This document shows positions 45,220 through 63,355 of a DNA stretch of 64,000 bases, piece by piece. The first letter of the stretch is position 1; every line of letters begins with the position of its first letter. The DNA comes from Adhaeribacter pallidiroseus (lineage in GTDB: Bacteria; Bacteroidota; Bacteroidia; Cytophagales; Hymenobacteraceae). The notes below the pieces were generated by a model that searched no databases, was not told the DNA's origin, and was given only the letters and a program-made list of their open reading frames with translations. The DNA is taken from assembly GCF_003340495.1 (NCBI RefSeq), contig NZ_QASA01000001.1:4092001-4156000 (forward strand). Reading direction: 5' to 3'. Position numbers and translations under genes: made by a program.

Positions 45220-46104
45220 ATGATTGAAGCAGTAAAATTCTGGAACGAACCTAATAATAAATCACACTGGGACCCGCAAATAGATCCGGAATGGCGGATC
45301 TACGGCCAAATGGTAAAATTAGCCGCTCAAGCCGTTAAGGCCGAAAATCCGGGCATCCTGCGCGTGCTGGGCGGTATTTCGCCCATTGATCCTAGTTTTA
45401 TCAATCGCATGCAAAGCTACGGTGCCCTTGATGACCTGAATGCCGTAGCGGTACATGGCTTTCCGTTGGATTGGAATTTGTGGTCGATCCACGAGTGGCC
45501 CAACAAAATAGCCGAAATTGAAGCCGTAACCAATTTGCCCGTGTGGGCAACCGAAGTAGGTATTTCCAGTTTTGGCGCCGAAGAGGTGCAGGAGTTTGGT
45601 TTGCAACGGACAGCCGAGTTATTAATGGGCCGGGTACCGCGGGCGCATTGGTATAGTTTATACGATTTACCGCAAGCCTGGGAGGCTACCACCCGCCACC
45701 GCGAAGCCGAAGGTTCGTCGTATTACCGTCATTTTCACATGGGTTTATTGCGCGAAGACGGCACGCCTAAATTAGCGCTCAAACATTTCTCGGATTATAC
45801 CCCGGAGTTCGGCATTTGCCAGTGGTTCCATTTCGAAGATCACCGCCTGGACCAGGCCATTGACTGGCTCCGGAAACTAGGGGTAAAGCATTTACGCACC
45901 GGTTTAAGCTGGGCCGATTGGCTGCGCCCGAACGCCGACGTGTGGTTTGACCACGTGATGAAAAAACTGGAAGAATTTGATTTAACCGTTACGTTCTGCT
46001 TTACGCCCGAATCCAAAGGCATCCAGCCGCACCATACCAGTCCGCCCCAAAACATTGAAGAGTTCGCCGATTTCTGCGTAACCATGATGCGCCGCTACGC
46101 TTAA
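45220..46104 (+). CDS. Glycosidase-like protein (GH39/clan-A type) with circularly permuted barrel
   Basis: A 294-residue protein with both catalytic signatures of clan-A retaining glycosidases. The acid/base Glu10 is in FWNEPNN (strand 4), at the very N-terminus, and the nucleophile Glu112 in VWATEVGISS (strand 7), followed by HWYSLYDL (strand 8). The segments that normally come first lie at the C-terminus: FGICQWFHFED (strand 1), VKHLRTGLSWADW (strand 2) and LTVTFCFTPESKG (strand 3), ending FADFCVTMMRRYA, which would normally run straight into the WNEPN strand. The gene therefore looks circularly permuted. No signal peptide is present. Substrate (beta-xyloside or other) is unknown. Confidence 0.78.
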   Translation: MIEAVKFWNEPNNKSHWDPQIDPEWRIYGQMVKLAAQAVKAENPGILRVLGGISPIDPSFINRMQSYGALDDLNAVAVHGFPLDWNLWSIHEWPNKIAEIEAVTNLPVWATEVGISSFGAEEVQEFGLQRTAELLMGRVPRAHWYSLYDLPQAWEATTRHREAEGSSYYRHFHMGLLREDGTPKLALKHFSDYTPEFGICQWFHFEDHRLDQAIDWLRKLGVKHLRTGLSWADWLRPNADVWFDHVMKKLEEFDLTVTFCFTPESKGIQPHHTSPPQNIEEFADFCVTMMRRYA

Positions 46105-46300: not shown

Positions 46301-47227
46301 ATGAGCGAGCAAATTCAGGAAGACGCGCCCGACGTGTGGATGCAGCACATGCGCCAGGGAGCCTTTGCCGAAGCCTGGAAAAAAAGTGATGCGGACTTGA
46401 AAGCCCGGGCCGGTCAGCCTTGCTGGCACTGGCCCCGGCATTTTCAATACATCTGGGATGGTGGCTCTTTAGCCGGCCAGCGGGTTCTGGTACGTTGTTA
46501 TCACGGGCTGGGCGATACCATCCAATTTATCCGGTACATGCCTTTGTTAAAAGCAATTGCCGCTGAAGTTATAGTGTGGGCCCAGGAACCGCTTATCCCG
46601 CTTTTAGAAACTGTATCTGGTATTGATCAGCTTTTGCCGCTGCACGATGGCACGCCCGAGGTAGCATACGATGCGGATATCGAAATCATGGAATTGCCGC
46701 ATTACTTCCGGACTACTCTCTCCACCCTCCCGGCGCAGGTGCCTTATTTGCACGTTAAACCGTTACTCTTACCTTCCGAAACAGATAAGTTAAAAGTGGG
46801 ATTGGTTTGGAAGGCGGGTGATTGGGATGAAAGCCGTTCTATTCCGTTTTCTGCTTTAGCGCCTTTGGCGAGTTTATCGCATATTCAATTTTACATGCTG
46901 CAAGCTAATGCGCCAGAAGCCGGTTATACCGGCGCCTTTGGGGAGTATCCGGGTAACTTTGGTTTGTATGATTACGCGCGAGTACTAAAAGGCTTGGATT
47001 TATTAATTACCGTTGATTCCATGCCGGCGCATTTGGCCGGTGCCCTCGGCGTACCCGTCTGGACTTTATTGCGGGTGAATGCCGACTGGCGGTGGATGGA
47101 GGATCGGGAAGATAGTCCGTGGTATCCGACCATGCGGCTTTTCCGGCAAACGCAATTAGGTAATTGGGAGGAGGTTATTAATCGGGTTTCGGAGGAGTTA
47201 AGTAAGGTTAGTAGAGATAAAAATTAA
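46301..47227 (+). CDS. Glycosyltransferase-9-like protein
   Basis: A 308-residue protein with the GT-B C-terminal half found in GT9-type and TPR-linked glycosyltransferases: LVRCYHGLGDTIQFIRYMPL (about 64-83), a donor-site-like DYARVLKGLDLLITVDSMPAHLAGALGVPVW (about 224-254; Asp and His of the VDSxxAHLAGALG motif) and a final WYPTMRLFRQ. The N-terminal 50 residues look like a single TPR-type helix pair. No sugar can be assigned. It follows the glycosidase-like gene in the same direction. Confidence 0.8.
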   Translation: MSEQIQEDAPDVWMQHMRQGAFAEAWKKSDADLKARAGQPCWHWPRHFQYIWDGGSLAGQRVLVRCYHGLGDTIQFIRYMPLLKAIAAEVIVWAQEPLIPLLETVSGIDQLLPLHDGTPEVAYDADIEIMELPHYFRTTLSTLPAQVPYLHVKPLLLPSETDKLKVGLVWKAGDWDESRSIPFSALAPLASLSHIQFYMLQANAPEAGYTGAFGEYPGNFGLYDYARVLKGLDLLITVDSMPAHLAGALGVPVWTLLRVNADWRWMEDREDSPWYPTMRLFRQTQLGNWEEVINRVSEELSKVSRDKN

Positions 47228-47890: not shown

Positions 47891-47923
47891 AAAAAAGCGG
47901 AGATTTTCGGTCTCCGCTTTTTT
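47891..47923 (-). terminator. Terminator after the FrhB-like gene
   Basis: AAAAAAGCGGAGA and TCTCCGCTTTTTT form a 13-bp stem around a seven-base loop; on the minus strand it ends in a T-run. It sits immediately after the stop codon. Confidence 0.82.
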
Positions 47924-49308
47924 TATCCTTTTAATTCGCTGTGGCGTTTAAACATTTCTTTAAACTTTCCCTGGTGGTAGGCCAGACCATGGTAAATGGC
48001 AGCGGCTACGCGCGCCCAACGGTAGTAAATCTGGGGTTTTTGGAGTTGGCGGGCGAATTTAAAAACCCGATTGCTCCACGCCGAAATGTAATACCGGGTC
48101 CGATAAATAAGTTTGCGCTGCCGGGTGGGCGTTTTCGCATCTGGAGCTACGCGTTTGCGGGGCTTCACGCCTTTTTTCTGCCAGGTAAGCCGGTAAGCTA
48201 AACCTTCGCGTCGTTGCCGGAAACCAGCCGCCTGCGTTTGGTGTACAAATTCGGCGTCTACGGCTTTTAATTCTAATCTATTTTCCTGAATAGCGTTAGC
48301 AACTAGTTGTTCTATTACGGGCGAGCGTACCACTACCACGTTCGTACCTTTGCCATCCGAAGAATACGGTTCTACCCAGGCATCCCCGAAGGAAATATCG
48401 GCGGTTTCGGCTACTACGTCGTCGCAGTAGTTACAGGCGGAATTCATGTAAAAACCCGCCCCCCAGTCGCCGTCGGCTAAATGCCACCACAAACGATTTA
48501 CTTTCTGGCCATTGCGCAGGGTCAATTGGGCGTTGTACCAGTTGGCCGGGTGGTTATGGTCTTTCAGGCGGTATTCTACTTGCTCTACCTGGTTTACGGG
48601 CACGTTCATTTGCCAGGCAAAGCTTTCCACGAACCGGGCACTTTTCATGTGGCCGCAAAATAGCCCCAAAGTAAATTTTATGCGCTCCCGGATAACAGGA
48701 TCTTCGCGGCGCAGCAATTGTACGGCCTTAATAAAGCACGGAATGCCCACCACGGCGTACCGGCCCGGTACTTCGCGGATAATTTTTAAAATTTCGGATA
48801 ACTCAATGGGGTAATACCGCGACTTGGCGCCCGCCCGGACTTCTGCCTCGGTGCGGGCAATGCGGTACTTGAAATAACGGCCGTTGGTTTGCGGATCTTC
48901 GGTGGCGATAACGTGCGCCACACCATCAATCAAACCTTGCCGCATTAACTCGGTAGCCACCCAGGTAACCATCCCACCCGAGCTGCCTTGCAACCGGAAA
49001 TCGGCCTCGCCCACGTGCCCCACGTACGCCTTCTCGAAACGGCCAATACTGGGGTGTTGCTGTTCAGCGGTCGGGTATAAATGATCGGCTAAGTCATCTT
49101 CGTTTTTGGCTTCCGGCGAAAACGGGCAGGTTTGCGTGAAACTAACCGAACGCTGGTTAAACCAGGCGCTATCACCGGTAGGTTTTAACTGGCCGTAATC
49201 ATCAAAATTCATTTGCACGTCGGGCACCTTGGCCTGCGCCACGCAACTGCCGCAACCAATACACAAACCAGAACGCACAATTTCCTGCGGACTTACTAAG
49301 GCGCTCAT
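47923..49308 (-). CDS. Coenzyme F420 hydrogenase/dehydrogenase beta-subunit-like iron-sulfur protein
   Basis: FrhB-like proteins carry flavin and 4Fe-4S clusters; those beside polysaccharide pyruvyltransferases are common in exopolysaccharide loci and their reaction is not settled. The 461-residue product has the ferredoxin motif CIGCGSC (residues 16-22) with further cysteines (TCPFSPEAKNEDD near 60-72), the central FrhB domain with LQGSSGGMVTWVA (about 107-119), IPCFIKAVQLLRRED (about 190-204) and a second cysteine pair in SACNYCDDVVAETADISFGDAW (about 290-311). Its start overlaps the stop of the upstream pyruvyltransferase gene by four bases, so they are co-translated. Confidence 0.87.
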   Translation of the reverse strand: MSALVSPQEIVRSGLCIGCGSCVAQAKVPDVQMNFDDYGQLKPTGDSAWFNQRSVSFTQTCPFSPEAKNEDDLADHLYPTAEQQHPSIGRFEKAYVGHVGEADFRLQGSSGGMVTWVATELMRQGLIDGVAHVIATEDPQTNGRYFKYRIARTEAEVRAGAKSRYYPIELSEILKIIREVPGRYAVVGIPCFIKAVQLLRREDPVIRERIKFTLGLFCGHMKSARFVESFAWQMNVPVNQVEQVEYRLKDHNHPANWYNAQLTLRNGQKVNRLWWHLADGDWGAGFYMNSACNYCDDVVAETADISFGDAWVEPYSSDGKGTNVVVVRSPVIEQLVANAIQENRLELKAVDAEFVHQTQAAGFRQRREGLAYRLTWQKKGVKPRKRVAPDAKTPTRQRKLIYRTRYYISAWSNRVFKFARQLQKPQIYYRWARVAAAIYHGLAYHQGKFKEMFKRHSELKG

Positions 49309-50411
49309 GCGGGTTGTAATTGTTTAGTACTCAACGCCCGGTCCAGGTACGCTTGGGATGATTGCCGCAGCAAATTTATTCTTTCGGTAATTTCGGGGTT
49401 TAAAGGCTTGCTTAAACGGGCTTCAAAAACCTCAGAAGTTGTTCCTTCTAAAATTAGATGTTTTTCACCACCGATTTTGGCCATTAAACCTTGCAGTTTA
49501 TAGCGGCGGTAAGGCGTAGTTTCGCAGACAAAAGGACGGGCGTTGCGCAAAGCAAAAACACAACCGTGGAAAAAGTTAGTGGCTACCGCTTCGGCTTTTG
49601 CCATAAAATGCGCGAAATCGTGCGGGTCGGCAGTGAGCCATTGTTCGTCAGCAAAATCGTTGCGGTACCCAATGCTGATGAGCGGTAAGTTTTTGGTTCG
49701 GGCATAGTTCTGAATTTCGCGGGCGAAAGACTCGGAAAAATTATGCCCGTAAACGGCCAGGTACGACTTTGGCAGATTACTTAAACTGCGATCATCGGGC
49801 GTTACTGGGAATTGCAGGCAAGGGTCCAGCACCATTTCGGGCTCAAAGCCTAAGGCATTATTTACTATTTCCTGCGAGTTGGCATCGCGCACCGAAATTT
49901 GATCGAAGTTGCGCAACTTTTCGGCCCAGGTGGGGTCCATGCCCCAGGTAGCGTCGTAATTACCAAAACTAGCGGCGTAGGAAATCAACCGCTTAGCTCG
50001 TACGTTATCGCCGTAAAAAATAGAACAGCCGCCAAACCACGGGTGCGATAAATTCCAAACCTCGTCGCTGCCCACCACTACTACATCGTAGTTATCCATT
50101 TCGGCCGGGTTATCCAGCTGAAAGCGCCGCGACAAGGGCATGGTTTTAAAAATCTGAAAAAATTTTAAAATTTTCTCGCGGTACTGGGGGTAATCTGATT
50201 TAGGTACGTGCGTCGGCAATACCGGCTGAAAAGCGCAGGTCCACTCGGCCTGGTTTACTCTATCGGAATCGTGGTCCAGAATTTCTACCTGGTGGCCGCG
50301 GGCCTGTAAACCTTCGGTTAAACAACGCGCTTGCCAGTAGCTTCCGTAATTAATGCAGCGGTGAAAAGTAAGCACGCCGATTTTTAAAATATCTTTTTTT
50401 GTATGCTCCAA
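49305..50411 (-). CDS. Polysaccharide pyruvyl transferase family protein
   Basis: Family members add pyruvate ketals to sugars in exopolysaccharides, using phosphoenolpyruvate. The 368-residue product has the N-terminal GVLTFHRCINYGSYWQ (residues 12-27), VVGSDEVWNLSHPWFGG (about 110-126) and the C-terminal ATNFFHGCVFALRNARPFV (about 277-295) typical of the family. It is translationally coupled to an FrhB-like protein and, with the GT9/GT2/ligase set, points to decorated surface glycans. The acceptor sugar is unknown. Confidence 0.9.
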   Translation of the reverse strand: MEHTKKDILKIGVLTFHRCINYGSYWQARCLTEGLQARGHQVEILDHDSDRVNQAEWTCAFQPVLPTHVPKSDYPQYREKILKFFQIFKTMPLSRRFQLDNPAEMDNYDVVVVGSDEVWNLSHPWFGGCSIFYGDNVRAKRLISYAASFGNYDATWGMDPTWAEKLRNFDQISVRDANSQEIVNNALGFEPEMVLDPCLQFPVTPDDRSLSNLPKSYLAVYGHNFSESFAREIQNYARTKNLPLISIGYRNDFADEQWLTADPHDFAHFMAKAEAVATNFFHGCVFALRNARPFVCETTPYRRYKLQGLMAKIGGEKHLILEGTTSEVFEARLSKPLNPEITERINLLRQSSQAYLDRALSTKQLQPA

Positions 50412-50838: not shown

Positions 50839-51441
50839 ATGATTAACCTTCTCCTTATTCGTCACGCCCTTACCGACTCGGTAGGCAAGCGCCTTTCGGG
50901 CCGTTTGCCCGGTGTTCCTTTAAACGCGACCGGCCGCCAACAAGCCCAGGAATTAGCTTTGCGGCTCACCCACGTACCACTTGCGGCTATTTACAGCAGC
51001 CCCCTGGAACGCGCCGTGGAAACGGCCGAACCAGTAGCGCAATCGCACCAATTAGAAACCCTAATTTCGGAAGATTTTTTAGAAATAAATTTTGGCGATT
51101 GGACCAACGCTAGCTTCGAGGAGTTACAAACCAATCCGACATTTAAAAACTTTAATACTTTCCGGAGTAATACGCGCATACCCGGCGGCGAAATGATGCT
51201 GGAAGCCCAAACCCGCGTAATTACCGGCATTGAGAAATTATATCAGAAACACCATCAACAAACCATTGCCATTGTGAGCCATTCCGATTTAATAAAAGCG
51301 GCGCTGGCTTATTACGCCGGCATTCACCTGGATCTGTTTCAGCGCGTGGAGATTAGTCCGGCTTCGGTAAGCGTAGTTCAAATTTTTCCGGAAACGGCTA
51401 AGATTTTAGTTATAAACGATACCGGCGAAATCCAGCTTTAA
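50839..51441 (+). CDS. Histidine phosphatase (phosphoglycerate mutase-like) protein
   Basis: A phosphohistidine enzyme; substrates in this group range from sugar phosphates to nucleotides or alpha-ribazole phosphate. The 200-residue product has LLIRHALTDS with the nucleophilic His9, RLPGVPLNATGRQQAQELA (about 22-40), SSPLERAVETAEPV (about 54-67), an acidic loop FLEINFGDW (about 81-89) and the second catalytic His in IVSHSDLIKAAL (about 146-157). It stands alone, so the physiological substrate cannot be inferred. Confidence 0.9.
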   Translation: MINLLLIRHALTDSVGKRLSGRLPGVPLNATGRQQAQELALRLTHVPLAAIYSSPLERAVETAEPVAQSHQLETLISEDFLEINFGDWTNASFEELQTNPTFKNFNTFRSNTRIPGGEMMLEAQTRVITGIEKLYQKHHQQTIAIVSHSDLIKAALAYYAGIHLDLFQRVEISPASVSVVQIFPETAKILVINDTGEIQL

Positions 51442-55100: not shown

Positions 55101-56429
55101 ATGCATAATACCATAGAAAAAGCAACAGGAAAGCTTGGTATATTAACACCAGGGTTAGGTGCCGTAGCCACTACCCTTATTGCCGGGGTAGAAGCCGTGA
55201 AAAAAAATCTGGCGCAACCAGTTGGCTCTTTAACCCAAATGGGTAACATTCGCTTAGGAAAAAAATCAGAAAACCGGAATCCTAAAATCAAAGATTTTGT
55301 ACCGCTTGCCGACCTGCACGATATTGTTTTTGGTGGTTGGGATGTGTACCAAGATAATGTGTTTGAAGCCGCTATGAACGCTAAAGTGCTGGAGCCGATG
55401 TTGCTGCACGCCGTACGCGCCGAACTGGAAGCTATTAAGCCCATGAAAGCGGTGTTTGATCAATCGTATATTGCGAACCTGCACGGCGATAATATTAAGC
55501 AAGCCGCCACCAAAGCCGATTTAGCCAAGGCCGTGATGGACGACATTGAAAATTTTAAAGAAGCCAATGATTGCTCCCGCGTGGTAATTGTGTGGTGTGG
55601 CTCCACCGAAATTTATTTAGAGCCATCGGCAGTACACCAAACCCTCGAGAGCTTTGAAGCCGGTTTGCGCAACAATGATCCGGCCATTGCCCCTTCTATG
55701 ATTTATGCGTATGCGGCTTTAAAGCTGGGAGTACCTTTTATGAACGGTGCGCCCAACTTAACCTGCGATATACCCGCTTTAATGCAACTGGCCAAACAAA
55801 CCGACACGCCCATTGGCGGAAAAGATTTTAAAACCGGCCAAACCTTAATGAAAACCATTCTGGCGCCGGGCTTGCAGGCGCGGGCTTTAGGCGTAAAAGG
55901 CTGGTTTTCGTCTAATATTCTGGGTAACCGCGATGGTTACGTGCTGGATCATCCGGATAATTTTAAAACCAAGGAAGTTTCGAAGCTGAGCGTACTCGAA
56001 GATATTTTGCAGCCCGAATCTAACCCGGAACTGTACGGCGAAATTTACCACAAAGTACGCATTAACTATTACCCGCCGGCCGGCGACAACAAAGAAAGCT
56101 GGGATAACATTGATATTTTTGGTTGGCTGGGTTACTCCATGCAAATTAAAATTAACTTTTTGTGCCGCGATTCTATTTTGGCCGCGCCCTTGGTTTTGGA
56201 TTTAGCTTTATTCAGCGATTTAGCGAAGCGCTCGGGCATGTCGGGGGTGCAGGAATGGTTGTCTTTTTACTTTAAATCGCCGCAAACCGAAACCGGCTTG
56301 CACCCGGAACACGATATTTTTAAGCAGTTAATAGTACTGCAAAACACCTTGCGCCAGCTAATGGGCGAAGAAATAATCACCCATATGGGTCAGGATTTTG
56401 ATCAGGATTTAGTAGAAGCGTCGTTGTAG
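55101..56429 (+). CDS. ino1: Myo-inositol-1-phosphate synthase
   Basis: Converts glucose 6-phosphate to myo-inositol 1-phosphate with bound NAD. The 442-residue product shows the N-terminal nucleotide site GILTPGLGAVATT (residues 13-25), IVFGGWDVYQDNVFEAA (about 75-91), IVIVWCGSTEIYLEP-type segment (about 157-171), NGAPNLTCDIPALM (about 213-226) and GKDFKTGQTLMKTILAPG (about 238-255). In Bacteroidota such enzymes feed inositol lipids, including inositol sphingolipids in Bacteroides. No inositol phosphatase or phosphatidyltransferase lies in the window. Confidence 0.94.
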   Translation: MHNTIEKATGKLGILTPGLGAVATTLIAGVEAVKKNLAQPVGSLTQMGNIRLGKKSENRNPKIKDFVPLADLHDIVFGGWDVYQDNVFEAAMNAKVLEPMLLHAVRAELEAIKPMKAVFDQSYIANLHGDNIKQAATKADLAKAVMDDIENFKEANDCSRVVIVWCGSTEIYLEPSAVHQTLESFEAGLRNNDPAIAPSMIYAYAALKLGVPFMNGAPNLTCDIPALMQLAKQTDTPIGGKDFKTGQTLMKTILAPGLQARALGVKGWFSSNILGNRDGYVLDHPDNFKTKEVSKLSVLEDILQPESNPELYGEIYHKVRINYYPPAGDNKESWDNIDIFGWLGYSMQIKINFLCRDSILAAPLVLDLALFSDLAKRSGMSGVQEWLSFYFKSPQTETGLHPEHDIFKQLIVLQNTLRQLMGEEIITHMGQDFDQDLVEASL

Positions 56430-61511: not shown

Positions 61512-63355
61512 ATCGAGTAGACGGCCCCACCAGTGTTGGCTGATGGGGAGCGCCTCTCACACCACTGTACGTACGGGTCTCGTATACAGCGGTTCGTTAA
61601 GTTGGGGGGCTACTTGTTTGTAGTAATCGAACAACGATTCATAACCTTTCTTGACCAACCGTTTCAGCGTGATAGTGGTCACCAGGATGGGGCTTTGCGC
61701 TACTGCCCAGCCCCCTTTCCGGGTCTGGCTCCAGGCATAGGCTTCCCCTTTTGAGACGCCTAATCGGATCAGGTTCTTTCTTTTCCGCTCGGGTTTCTTC
61801 CAGTCATGCCAGATGCAATGGCGCAGCCGGTTTCTGAGCCAACTATCCACTTGCTTTAACTTCCCCTGAATGCTGGCTAGACGAAAGTAGTTTACCCAGC
61901 CTCGCTGCACTTCCTTGAGTTGCTGAACGCGCTGCTCAAAGGCACTGGGCGTGGTCTTGCGGGTAATCCCTTTCAGGTTCTGCTTCAGCCTGGCCCAAGC
62001 CTTTTCTGCTACCACCAACTGGTATTTACCTTTCTCCCCTTTCCGGTAAGTGGGTACAAACCGGTAGCCTAGTATCTGAAAATCTACGGGTCGTCTAATG
62101 CCGCTCTTTTCCCGGTTGATGGGTAGCCTTAGCTTATTCTTCAGGAACAGGAAAAGGTTGTTGCCCACCTGCCGGGCCTCCGACTCACTTTTGGTATAAA
62201 CACTAAAGTCATCGGCATAGCGCACGTACCGCAAGCCTTGCTTTTCCAACTCTTTATCCAGCTCGTGAAGCAGAATATTGGAGAGCAGCGGACTCAACGG
62301 ACTGCCCTGTGGTACCCCTTTCCGGCGTTTGGTTAACTTTCCCCCAATAAGGATAGGGGCCCGAAGCCATTTGCGGATCAGGCGCAGCGTGAGCGGGCAT
62401 TTTACTTTCTGGTATACCAGTTGCAGGAGCAGGCAGTGCTCTACTTCATCAAAGAAGCTTTTCAGGTCCATATCGACAATATGCTGATAGCCTTCATTAA
62501 TGTTCTTCTGGGCTTGCCACACCGCCTGATGGGCGTTGCGGTTGGGCCGGAAGCCGTAGCTGTACTCTTTGAACTCCAGCTCGAAAAGCGGGGCTATGGC
62601 TTGGTTGACTGCTTGTTGTAGCAGCCGGTCGGTTACGGTAGGAATGCCTAACCGGCGCTTCTGGCCGTTGCTCTTAGGTATTTCTACCCCTAAGATGGGT
62701 AGAGGAAAGTACTGGCTGCTCCGGATAGCCGTAACTAAGGCCTCCTGATTTACTTGCAGATGCCCAGCTAGTTCAAGTACGGACATACCGTCTACGCCGG
62801 CTGCCCCTTGGTTAGCCTGCACTTGCCGGTAGGCTAGCAGCAGGTTGCCCCGGTGCAATACTTTCTCAATCATCCTACTTTCTACTTTATCTGTAATCCC
62901 TGTTCCGCTTACGCTAAGGCTGGCCAGGCCTCCTTACCACATTTGGAACAACTTCACGTTCGGCCCTTCGTCATCTTGTGAGACCTCCGCAGCGCTTACG
63001 GCTCGTTTCCTGATGGCTACTATGGCTTCTGCTGACTTCTCTCTTACCAACCCGTGGCCGAGAGACCTCCCCAGGTAAGAGCATATTCCTTCCTCCGATT
63101 CCTGGAACATCTACCCACTAGTACTTGTTGGTCAGGGGCTTTGCAAAGAGGTGCTTGCTTACCCGCACTAATGGGCCTCTTATGTACTTTCTGTTCGTCA
63201 GTACCGGATTTTGTAGTCCCGCTTTCTTCCCTGCTTATCTCACGATAAACCAGCTTGCGGCTTACTAACAGGCTGCACCAACTCGCCTGTAAGGGTCTTG
63301 CACCCTCTGGAATAATTTGGTACCTTTCAGTACCAGATGCCCATACTGGGCGCAC
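61512..63355 (-). mobile_element. Group II intron with reverse transcriptase/maturase
   Basis: The minus strand from 63355 starts GTGCGCCCAGTATGGGC, a group II 5' end (GTGYG), and is followed by a structured domain I-III region of about 480 bases, the maturase ORF, domain V (GAACCGCTGTATACGAGACC and GTACGTACAGTGGTGTG, about 61557-61597) and a domain VI-like hairpin (CCCCATCAG...CTGGTGGGG, about 61527-61550) ending near CTACTCGAT. The total of about 1.84 kb is normal. Both ends are set from motifs and could be off by a few bases. All parts look intact. Confidence 0.82.
61557..62873 (-). CDS. ltrA: Group II intron reverse transcriptase/maturase
   Basis: Intron-encoded protein that helps splicing and copies the intron into DNA. 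The 438-residue product has an RT domain (GAAGVDGMS near 23-31, IPKSNGQKRRLGIPTVTDR near 66-84, KSFFDEVEH near 134-142, KGVPQGSPLSPLLSNILL about 177-194, the catalytic YADD about 219-222) and the maturase X/GIIM domain (LKEVQRGWVNYFRLA near 319-333). No endonuclease domain is evident at the C-terminus. The last codons (NEPLYTRPVRTVV) are translated from domain V itself. Confidence 0.95.
   Translation of the reverse strand: MIEKVLHRGNLLLAYRQVQANQGAAGVDGMSVLELAGHLQVNQEALVTAIRSSQYFPLPILGVEIPKSNGQKRRLGIPTVTDRLLQQAVNQAIAPLFELEFKEYSYGFRPNRNAHQAVWQAQKNINEGYQHIVDMDLKSFFDEVEHCLLLQLVYQKVKCPLTLRLIRKWLRAPILIGGKLTKRRKGVPQGSPLSPLLSNILLHELDKELEKQGLRYVRYADDFSVYTKSESEARQVGNNLFLFLKNKLRLPINREKSGIRRPVDFQILGYRFVPTYRKGEKGKYQLVVAEKAWARLKQNLKGITRKTTPSAFEQRVQQLKEVQRGWVNYFRLASIQGKLKQVDSWLRNRLRHCIWHDWKKPERKRKNLIRLGVSKGEAYAWSQTRKGGWAVAQSPILVTTITLKRLVKKGYESLFDYYKQVAPQLNEPLYTRPVRTVV

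Follow-up and report, generated by a model that had tools for sequence, protein, structure and literature searches.

A GH39-like glycosidase barrel in circularly permuted strand order and its probable place in a conserved bacterial sugar pathway

In this study, a gene lying at positions 45220 to 46104 of a 64-kb stretch of the Adhaeribacter pallidiroseus genome (contig NZ_QASA01000001.1, positions 4,092,001 to 4,156,000; the whole stretch analysed is called the window hereafter) was investigated. It was observed that the gene encodes a complete protein of 294 amino acids (aa), which is almost certainly a natural circular permutant of a (beta/alpha)8 barrel of the clan-A glycosidases, related to glycoside hydrolase (GH) family 39. 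The features of the gene are given below, where PslG stands for the GH39 endo-beta-glucosidase of the Pseudomonas aeruginosa Psl cluster (PDB 5bx9, 4zn2), which was the best sequence match of solved structure.

45220..46104, plus strand: predicted circularly permuted GH39-like clan-A barrel protein, 294 aa, ATG start, complete with stop
45220..45801, plus strand: residues 1-194, corresponding to strands 4-8 (strands of the model at residues 4-7, 47-50, 75-81, 108-113 and 142-145)
45802..46101, plus strand: residues 195-294, corresponding to strands 1-3 and helix 3, which are normally N-terminal (strands of the model at residues 197-200, 224-230 and 254-260)
45247..45249, plus strand: codon of Glu10, the predicted acid/base, aligned with the WNEP glutamate of PslG
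45553..45555, plus strand: codon of Glu112, the predicted nucleophile, aligned with the WSTEWG glutamate of PslG
45895..45897, plus strand: codon of the strand-2 residue Arg226, which all 57 aligned rows share

When the protein was rotated to begin at residue 195, two matches that had been out of order merged into a single contiguous alignment. The rotated form matched a normally ordered paralogue from the same genome with 31% identity over 289 residues (E 3e-42), and it matched PslG contiguously with 45 bits (E 5.9e-11), whereas the unrotated protein reached 27 bits in two pieces. Again, when the start was moved along the chain three residues at a time (98 rotations) and each version was compared with five proteins of normal order, the best start was residue 193 or 196 in all five targets. 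Against its own paralogue the protein scored 378 at the best rotation and 229 unrotated, while 200 shuffles of the protein scored 38 +/- 5 with a maximum of 54. A chance match is therefore excluded, since the rotation peak far exceeds the shuffles and all five targets agree. The original prediction had located the motifs FWNEPNN (with Glu10), ATEVGISS (with Glu112) and the terminal FADFCVTMMRRYA correctly, and had proposed that the acid/base strand opens the chain and strands 1-3 come last, so that joining the two ends restores the normal order; the rotation alignments and the structure model both bear this out. The three checks it had named, namely a structure prediction, an alignment of the rotated protein and a search for homologues of the same order, likewise came out in its favour, with eight strands predicted in the sequence order b4-b8, b1-b3, contiguous alignments with GH39 PslG and with the same-genome paralogue, and the shared order of the relatives described next.

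Relatives were obtained from a scan of genome contigs, from which the best 80 of 550 stretches were examined, and all counts out of 80 refer to these. The permuted order extended across the full query, with the start codon at the same place, in 80 of 80 relatives; an in-frame stop lay at most five codons upstream of the start in 21 of them, and 45 had no alternative upstream start. The motif order beta4-Glu, beta7-Glu, beta2-Arg was recovered by a strict pattern in 78, and the remaining two carry the same glutamates with different neighbouring letters. One further match (G1233) was partial, covering residues 64-194 inside a 193-aa frame. In the window itself, a longer N-terminus is ruled out because an in-frame TAA sits two codons 5' of the ATG, and a tblastn search with the gene masked, using the permuted protein, its rotated form and the barrel of the normally ordered paralogue as queries, returned no match to a remnant of the N-terminal half anywhere in the 64 kb at E<=1. 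Truncation or a split gene, already argued against before this study, was thus rejected on the absence of such a remnant in the window at E<=1 and on the same order in the 80 relatives. That a truncation, frameshift or misassembly has artificially put the N-terminal strands behind the C-terminal ones is vanishingly improbable, given that the order is the same in 80 of 80 contigs and that 20 genomes of the 148-genome relatives sample, the window's own among them, contain a full-length match. A tandem-duplicated intermediate, which is a usual route to permutation, was detected in none of the 80 loci with the permuted gene masked (E<=0.01). The sole homologous stretch in that search was a normally ordered fusion in locus L064, and where high-GC loci have long open frames ahead of the gene, these held no homologous sequence at the same threshold.

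The AlphaFold model of the 294-aa protein displayed eight strands with a predicted local distance difference test score (pLDDT) of 88 and a predicted template modelling score (pTM) of 0.88, in agreement with the (beta/alpha)8 barrel of GH39, and a barrel of eight strands, as modelled, would bring the N- and C-termini next to each other in the fold. Sequence similarity to GH39 was found through the PslG match, the next best being a weak one (E 0.021) to 1px8, a beta-xylosidase structure which we take to belong to GH39. The catalytic residues N9-E10 and E112 lie near the equivalents of strand 4 and strand 7, as is characteristic of the family, but the strands do not run from 1 to 8. As their order is 4-8 and then 1-3, the protein is filed as a permuted relative of GH39 and not as an ordinary member. 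In Pfam, no match exceeded the curated cut-off, the best being PF11790 (Glyco_hydro_cc), whose 15.6 bits fall short of the required 21, with a viral family also appearing at E 0.2; no NCBIfam model matched the permuted protein at E<=1. The permutation was considered as the cause of the missing Pfam match and rejected, as rotation lifts the score merely from 15.6 to 16.5 bits. The normally ordered domain of L064, modelled with L064 itself and permuted rows only, gave a poor model (pLDDT 57, pTM 0.49), which was not interpreted. Sequence order alone cannot separate a permuted monomer from a domain-swapped obligate dimer, in which strands 4-8 of one chain would pack with strands 1-3 of another, and the linker between the two segments, around residues 190-197, is short; nevertheless, the single-chain prediction forms all eight strands at the pTM of 0.88 and the model matches closed barrels over the whole chain, which makes such a dimer decidedly unlikely.

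Six residues, N9, E10, H79, E112, W144 and R226, were invariant in all 57 aligned rows, which comprise the window protein and 56 of the 80 relatives. Asn9 directly precedes the acid/base Glu10, H79 lies on strand 6 and W144 on strand 8. In the permuted protein, the old termini (helix 8 to strand 1) would be joined by the short linker near residues 190-197, and the new termini would fall in the loop that links helix 3 to strand 4. In TIM barrels, this loop belongs to the side of the barrel remote from the active site. Because the new termini would occupy that remote side, the active site (Arg226, Asn9-Glu10, His79, Glu112 and Trp144) should be undisturbed. Both active-site glutamates of PslG aligned with those of the permuted protein after rotation; PMC11912335 names Glu276 as the PslG nucleophile and Glu165 as the acid/base, and counting along the alignment pairs these with E112 and E10, respectively, at an identical offset of 26. 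A further likeness is that PslG is a glycosidase encoded in a polysaccharide biosynthesis cluster, according to the same source. It differs in having the normal strand order and 416 residues against 294 aa, and in being periplasmic with an N-terminal transmembrane domain, as described in the accessible portion of PMC10485009, whereas the permuted protein has no leader.

The paralogue of the same genome is a 688-aa protein (C1:2778468-2780534) consisting of an N-terminal barrel and a C-terminal NAD-dependent epimerase/dehydratase (SDR1), and it sits (L084:6469-8535) in a run of SDR2, GH/SDR1, Zn-dehydrogenase, Gfo/Idh and glycosyltransferases. Both catalytic glutamates are replaced by alanine in this fusion (WNAPNN, ITAAGFS) and the barrel is recognisable over its whole length; judged by its sequence, this is a putative pseudo-glycosidase domain retained on an SDR enzyme. 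A normal copy was also held by 19 of 50 genomes chosen from the 80 loci, with L108 and L109 matching the model in part only. Among 148 relatives, including the window's own genome, the permuted gene was detected in 20 (full-length match) and the normal barrel in 35, the two occurring together in 18. SDR1 occurred in 35 of the 148, and the permuted gene was present in 18 of these 35 SDR1 genomes against 2 of the 113 others. Out of 240 alphaproteobacteria, SDR1 was found in 10, and a permuted or fused barrel in nine, all among those 10: five carry the fusion only, three an unfused SDR1 and, at another site, a permuted GH (which shares the SDR1 contig in G679 alone), one carries both the fusion and a permuted GH and one SDR1 alone. 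Again, SDR1 appeared in 19 of the 80 loci, once fused (L064), once cut by the edge (L050, from a genome with the fusion) and 17 times without an adjoining GH part, and in L147, from a genome of the window's genus, the cluster of the permuted gene and that of the fusion adjoin. This co-occurrence with SDR1 across genomes indicates that the permuted gene goes with the pathway and seems capable of replacing the fused domain, and we consider it likely that the permuted protein does the job of the normally ordered SDR1-fused barrel, taking the place of that domain. In a congener, L146 (G349:C3:5555600-5558700), GH and SDR1 occupy separate frames of about 354 and 362 aa, and from the sequence the fusion appears to be split, or a frameshift to be present.

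The SDR-fused normal domain is 31% identical after rotation and part of the linked gene set, like the permuted protein; it differs in its normal order, in its fusion to SDR1 and in an active site that is degraded in 11 of 29 two-gene genomes. This decay was followed in 52 normal copies, from which duplicate loci and GH39-like rows had been left out. Both glutamates were kept in 23 of 23 normal copies from genomes without the permuted gene and in 18 of 29 from genomes with it (Fisher 0.001, the rows being related and their kinship ignored), and the glutamate-loss state changed at least seven times on the tree. Some normal copies counted as intact are altered elsewhere in the active site; in L146, for instance, Asp replaces the Asn that precedes the acid/base. 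The persistence of the barrel after loss of the catalytic glutamates shows that part of the normal barrel's role needs no catalysis; this, together with the close co-occurrence of SDR1 and GH, would suit a permuted protein acting as a non-catalytic partner, that is, a sugar-binding or regulatory SDR1 subunit whose glutamates are kept for ligand binding. This explanation is unlikely, however, in view of the invariance of the two glutamates, Asn9, His79 and Trp144 in 57 of 57 permuted rows, and of the 23 genomes without the permuted gene that all retain both glutamates in the normal copy.

The neighbours of the permuted gene in the window include the following.

46301..47227, plus strand: GT9-like glycosyltransferase, homologue near the permuted gene in 43 of 80 loci
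47923..49308, minus strand: FrhB_FdhB (F420 dehydrogenase beta-type) protein, homologue in 30 of 80 loci
49305..50411, minus strand: polysaccharide pyruvyl transferase family protein, homologue in 30 of 80 loci
50839..51441, plus strand: histidine phosphatase, homologue in 60 of 80 loci
55101..56429, plus strand: myo-inositol-1-phosphate synthase, about 9 kb on, this type in 20 of 80 loci

Neighbours were tallied with 22 reference families by tblastn (E<=1e-15), the SDR and glycosyltransferase references being loose, and 78 of the 80 loci were observed to hold at least one of these families. The TIGR04290 methyltransferase was present in 36 loci, each time within about 1 kb upstream by midpoint, and an inositol-phosphate synthase in 35, with the second type, that of the window, in 20. 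In the same tally, which also caught other SDRs, SDR2 was counted in 33 loci, SDR1 in 29 and a UDP-glucuronate-decarboxylase-like enzyme in 23. Much of this neighbour set is annotated on Sinorhizobium pSymB and on Azospirillum plasmids; in an annotated plasmid of the latter, the methyltransferase gene and the beginning of the GH gene share four bases. A relative is held by 147 plasmid records, and among the 30 matches listed the annotated genes are called beta-xylosidase. A secreted degradative beta-xylosidase, as the automatic annotation of these close relatives in public records would have it, agrees with the substrates of GH39, which include beta-xylosides (PMC11912335). Such an enzyme is very improbable here, as a signal peptide has no space between strand 4, where the chain starts, and the in-frame stop two codons ahead of it, the neighbours look biosynthetic and the normal homologue is fused to an SDR enzyme.

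On the evidence of residues and gene context, the permuted protein is probably a catalytic glycosidase or transglycosidase in biosynthesis. It would act in the cytosol as a retaining beta-glycosidase or transglycosidase in which Glu10 serves as acid/base and Glu112 as nucleophile, and its substrate may be an intermediate of an oligosaccharide or cyclitol-glycoside (inositol- or nucleotide-sugar-derived) pathway. The pathway would use SDR sugar enzymes, glycosyltransferases, inositol-phosphate synthase and phosphatase, and often the TIGR04290 methyltransferase; no name for it was found in the open-access literature. A conserved hypothetical protein of about 582 aa (L150:10330-12078 and L151:14972-16726) was also encountered in 18 of the 80 loci, from rhizobia, Azospirillum and others; it had no NCBIfam match at E<=1e-10, and the L150 copy had no Pfam match at E<=1e-5.

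Taken as a whole, we assign a probability of about 0.8 to the reading that the gene encodes a permuted cytosolic enzyme of a conserved sugar pathway, able to replace the fused domain in trans. Several observations weigh against it. Foldseek returned no strong whole-chain match in the PDB (best E 3e-4, template modelling score 0.37), a weak result that is expected of a sequential aligner and gives no positive proof, and no PslG- or GH39-titled entry was among the matches listed by the PDB fold searches (50 per list), which we read as uninformative because an aligner that follows chain order places this protein out of register on barrels. In the window's genome, the permuted gene and the fusion are 1.36 Mb apart. 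Loci L032 and L053 lack all 22 neighbour families, and the neighbour tally was made on permuted-gene loci alone, without a random-locus control. G395 and the incomplete G352 carry the permuted gene without SDR1, and G705 carries SDR1 without a GH, though this SDR1 lies at a contig end. In the 10 alphaproteobacterial genomes with SDR1, taken alone, the tendency to carry either a fused SDR1 or the permuted gene does not reach significance (p 0.19). The glutamate-loss contrast, when kinship is considered, reduces to five independent pairs, of which on average about one differs in loss; the differing pairs are always in the expected direction but too few for significance. Again, the replacement is not complete, since 18 of the 29 genomes with both genes retain both glutamates in the normal copy.

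The phylogeny was inferred from 62 rows, namely 28 permuted (rotated), 27 normal SDR-fused and seven other normally ordered GH39-like rows serving as outgroup. All permuted rows fell into one clade (support 100/99), with the normal SDR-fused rows as its sister clade (support 100/100); the outgroup branches are long, as the tool warned, making the rooting the least sure part of the tree. The permuted rows carry the labels of eight phyla, several of them metagenome-assembled genomes (MAGs), and these labels are intermixed in the clade, which suggests horizontal transfer. In genome samples searched at E<=1e-8, with the centre genome of each sample (a known carrier) left out, the permuted gene was found in 0 of 295 genomes of the phylum sample, 19 of 147 relatives, 3 of 239 alphaproteobacteria, 1 of 198 and 1 of 193 genomes of two other phyla and 0 of 149 genomes of one order, and its distribution is patchy. 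The record titled as a Williamsia MAG (L015) holds a permuted gene 81% identical to that of the window, as close as Bacteroidota copies are, so its label is doubtful. A second, more divergent permuted copy occurs in Segetibacter sp. 3557_3 (contig 25, L032), whose genome also has L018; being without any of the 22 neighbour families, it is a possible offshoot with another role.

With reference to the literature, natural circular permutation among (beta/alpha)8 glycosidases is described for the GH70 glucansucrases and GtfB-type enzymes relative to GH13 in clan GH-H (PMC11299179, in the part available), and MalS of GH13_19 has circularly permuted domains, that is, a permuted domain order (PMC10223318, likewise in part). 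These differ from the present case in clan and size and are multidomain, whereas a single-domain barrel related to GH39 is involved here. The deacetylase domain of PgaB, a circularly permuted CE4 needed for biofilm formation by a title cited in the accessible part of PMC10485009, is a carbohydrate esterase of an unrelated family. No published permutation of a clan-A glycosidase was found in the open-access literature, subscription journals being mostly outside that search. As a single-domain GH39 relative with a single permuted clade and an unpermuted sister in the same genome, the protein offers a clean system for studying how permutation arises, whether it is selected and what it does to folding and partnering, and the public label 'beta-xylosidase' hides both the permutation and the probable biosynthetic role. 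More speculatively, one ancient permutation may have freed the barrel from the SDR fusion and turned it into a mobile, self-standing subunit that spread together with the pathway over at least eight phyla and would dock to unfused SDR1, restoring the ancestral two-domain enzyme in trans, while the remaining fused barrels decay to scaffolds; the permuted proteins would then form a new permuted clan-A family with a biosynthetic (transglycosylating or proofreading) role.

Elsewhere in the window, a 438-aa open reading frame at 61557-62873 on the minus strand resembles, in its motifs, a group II intron-type reverse transcriptase/maturase.
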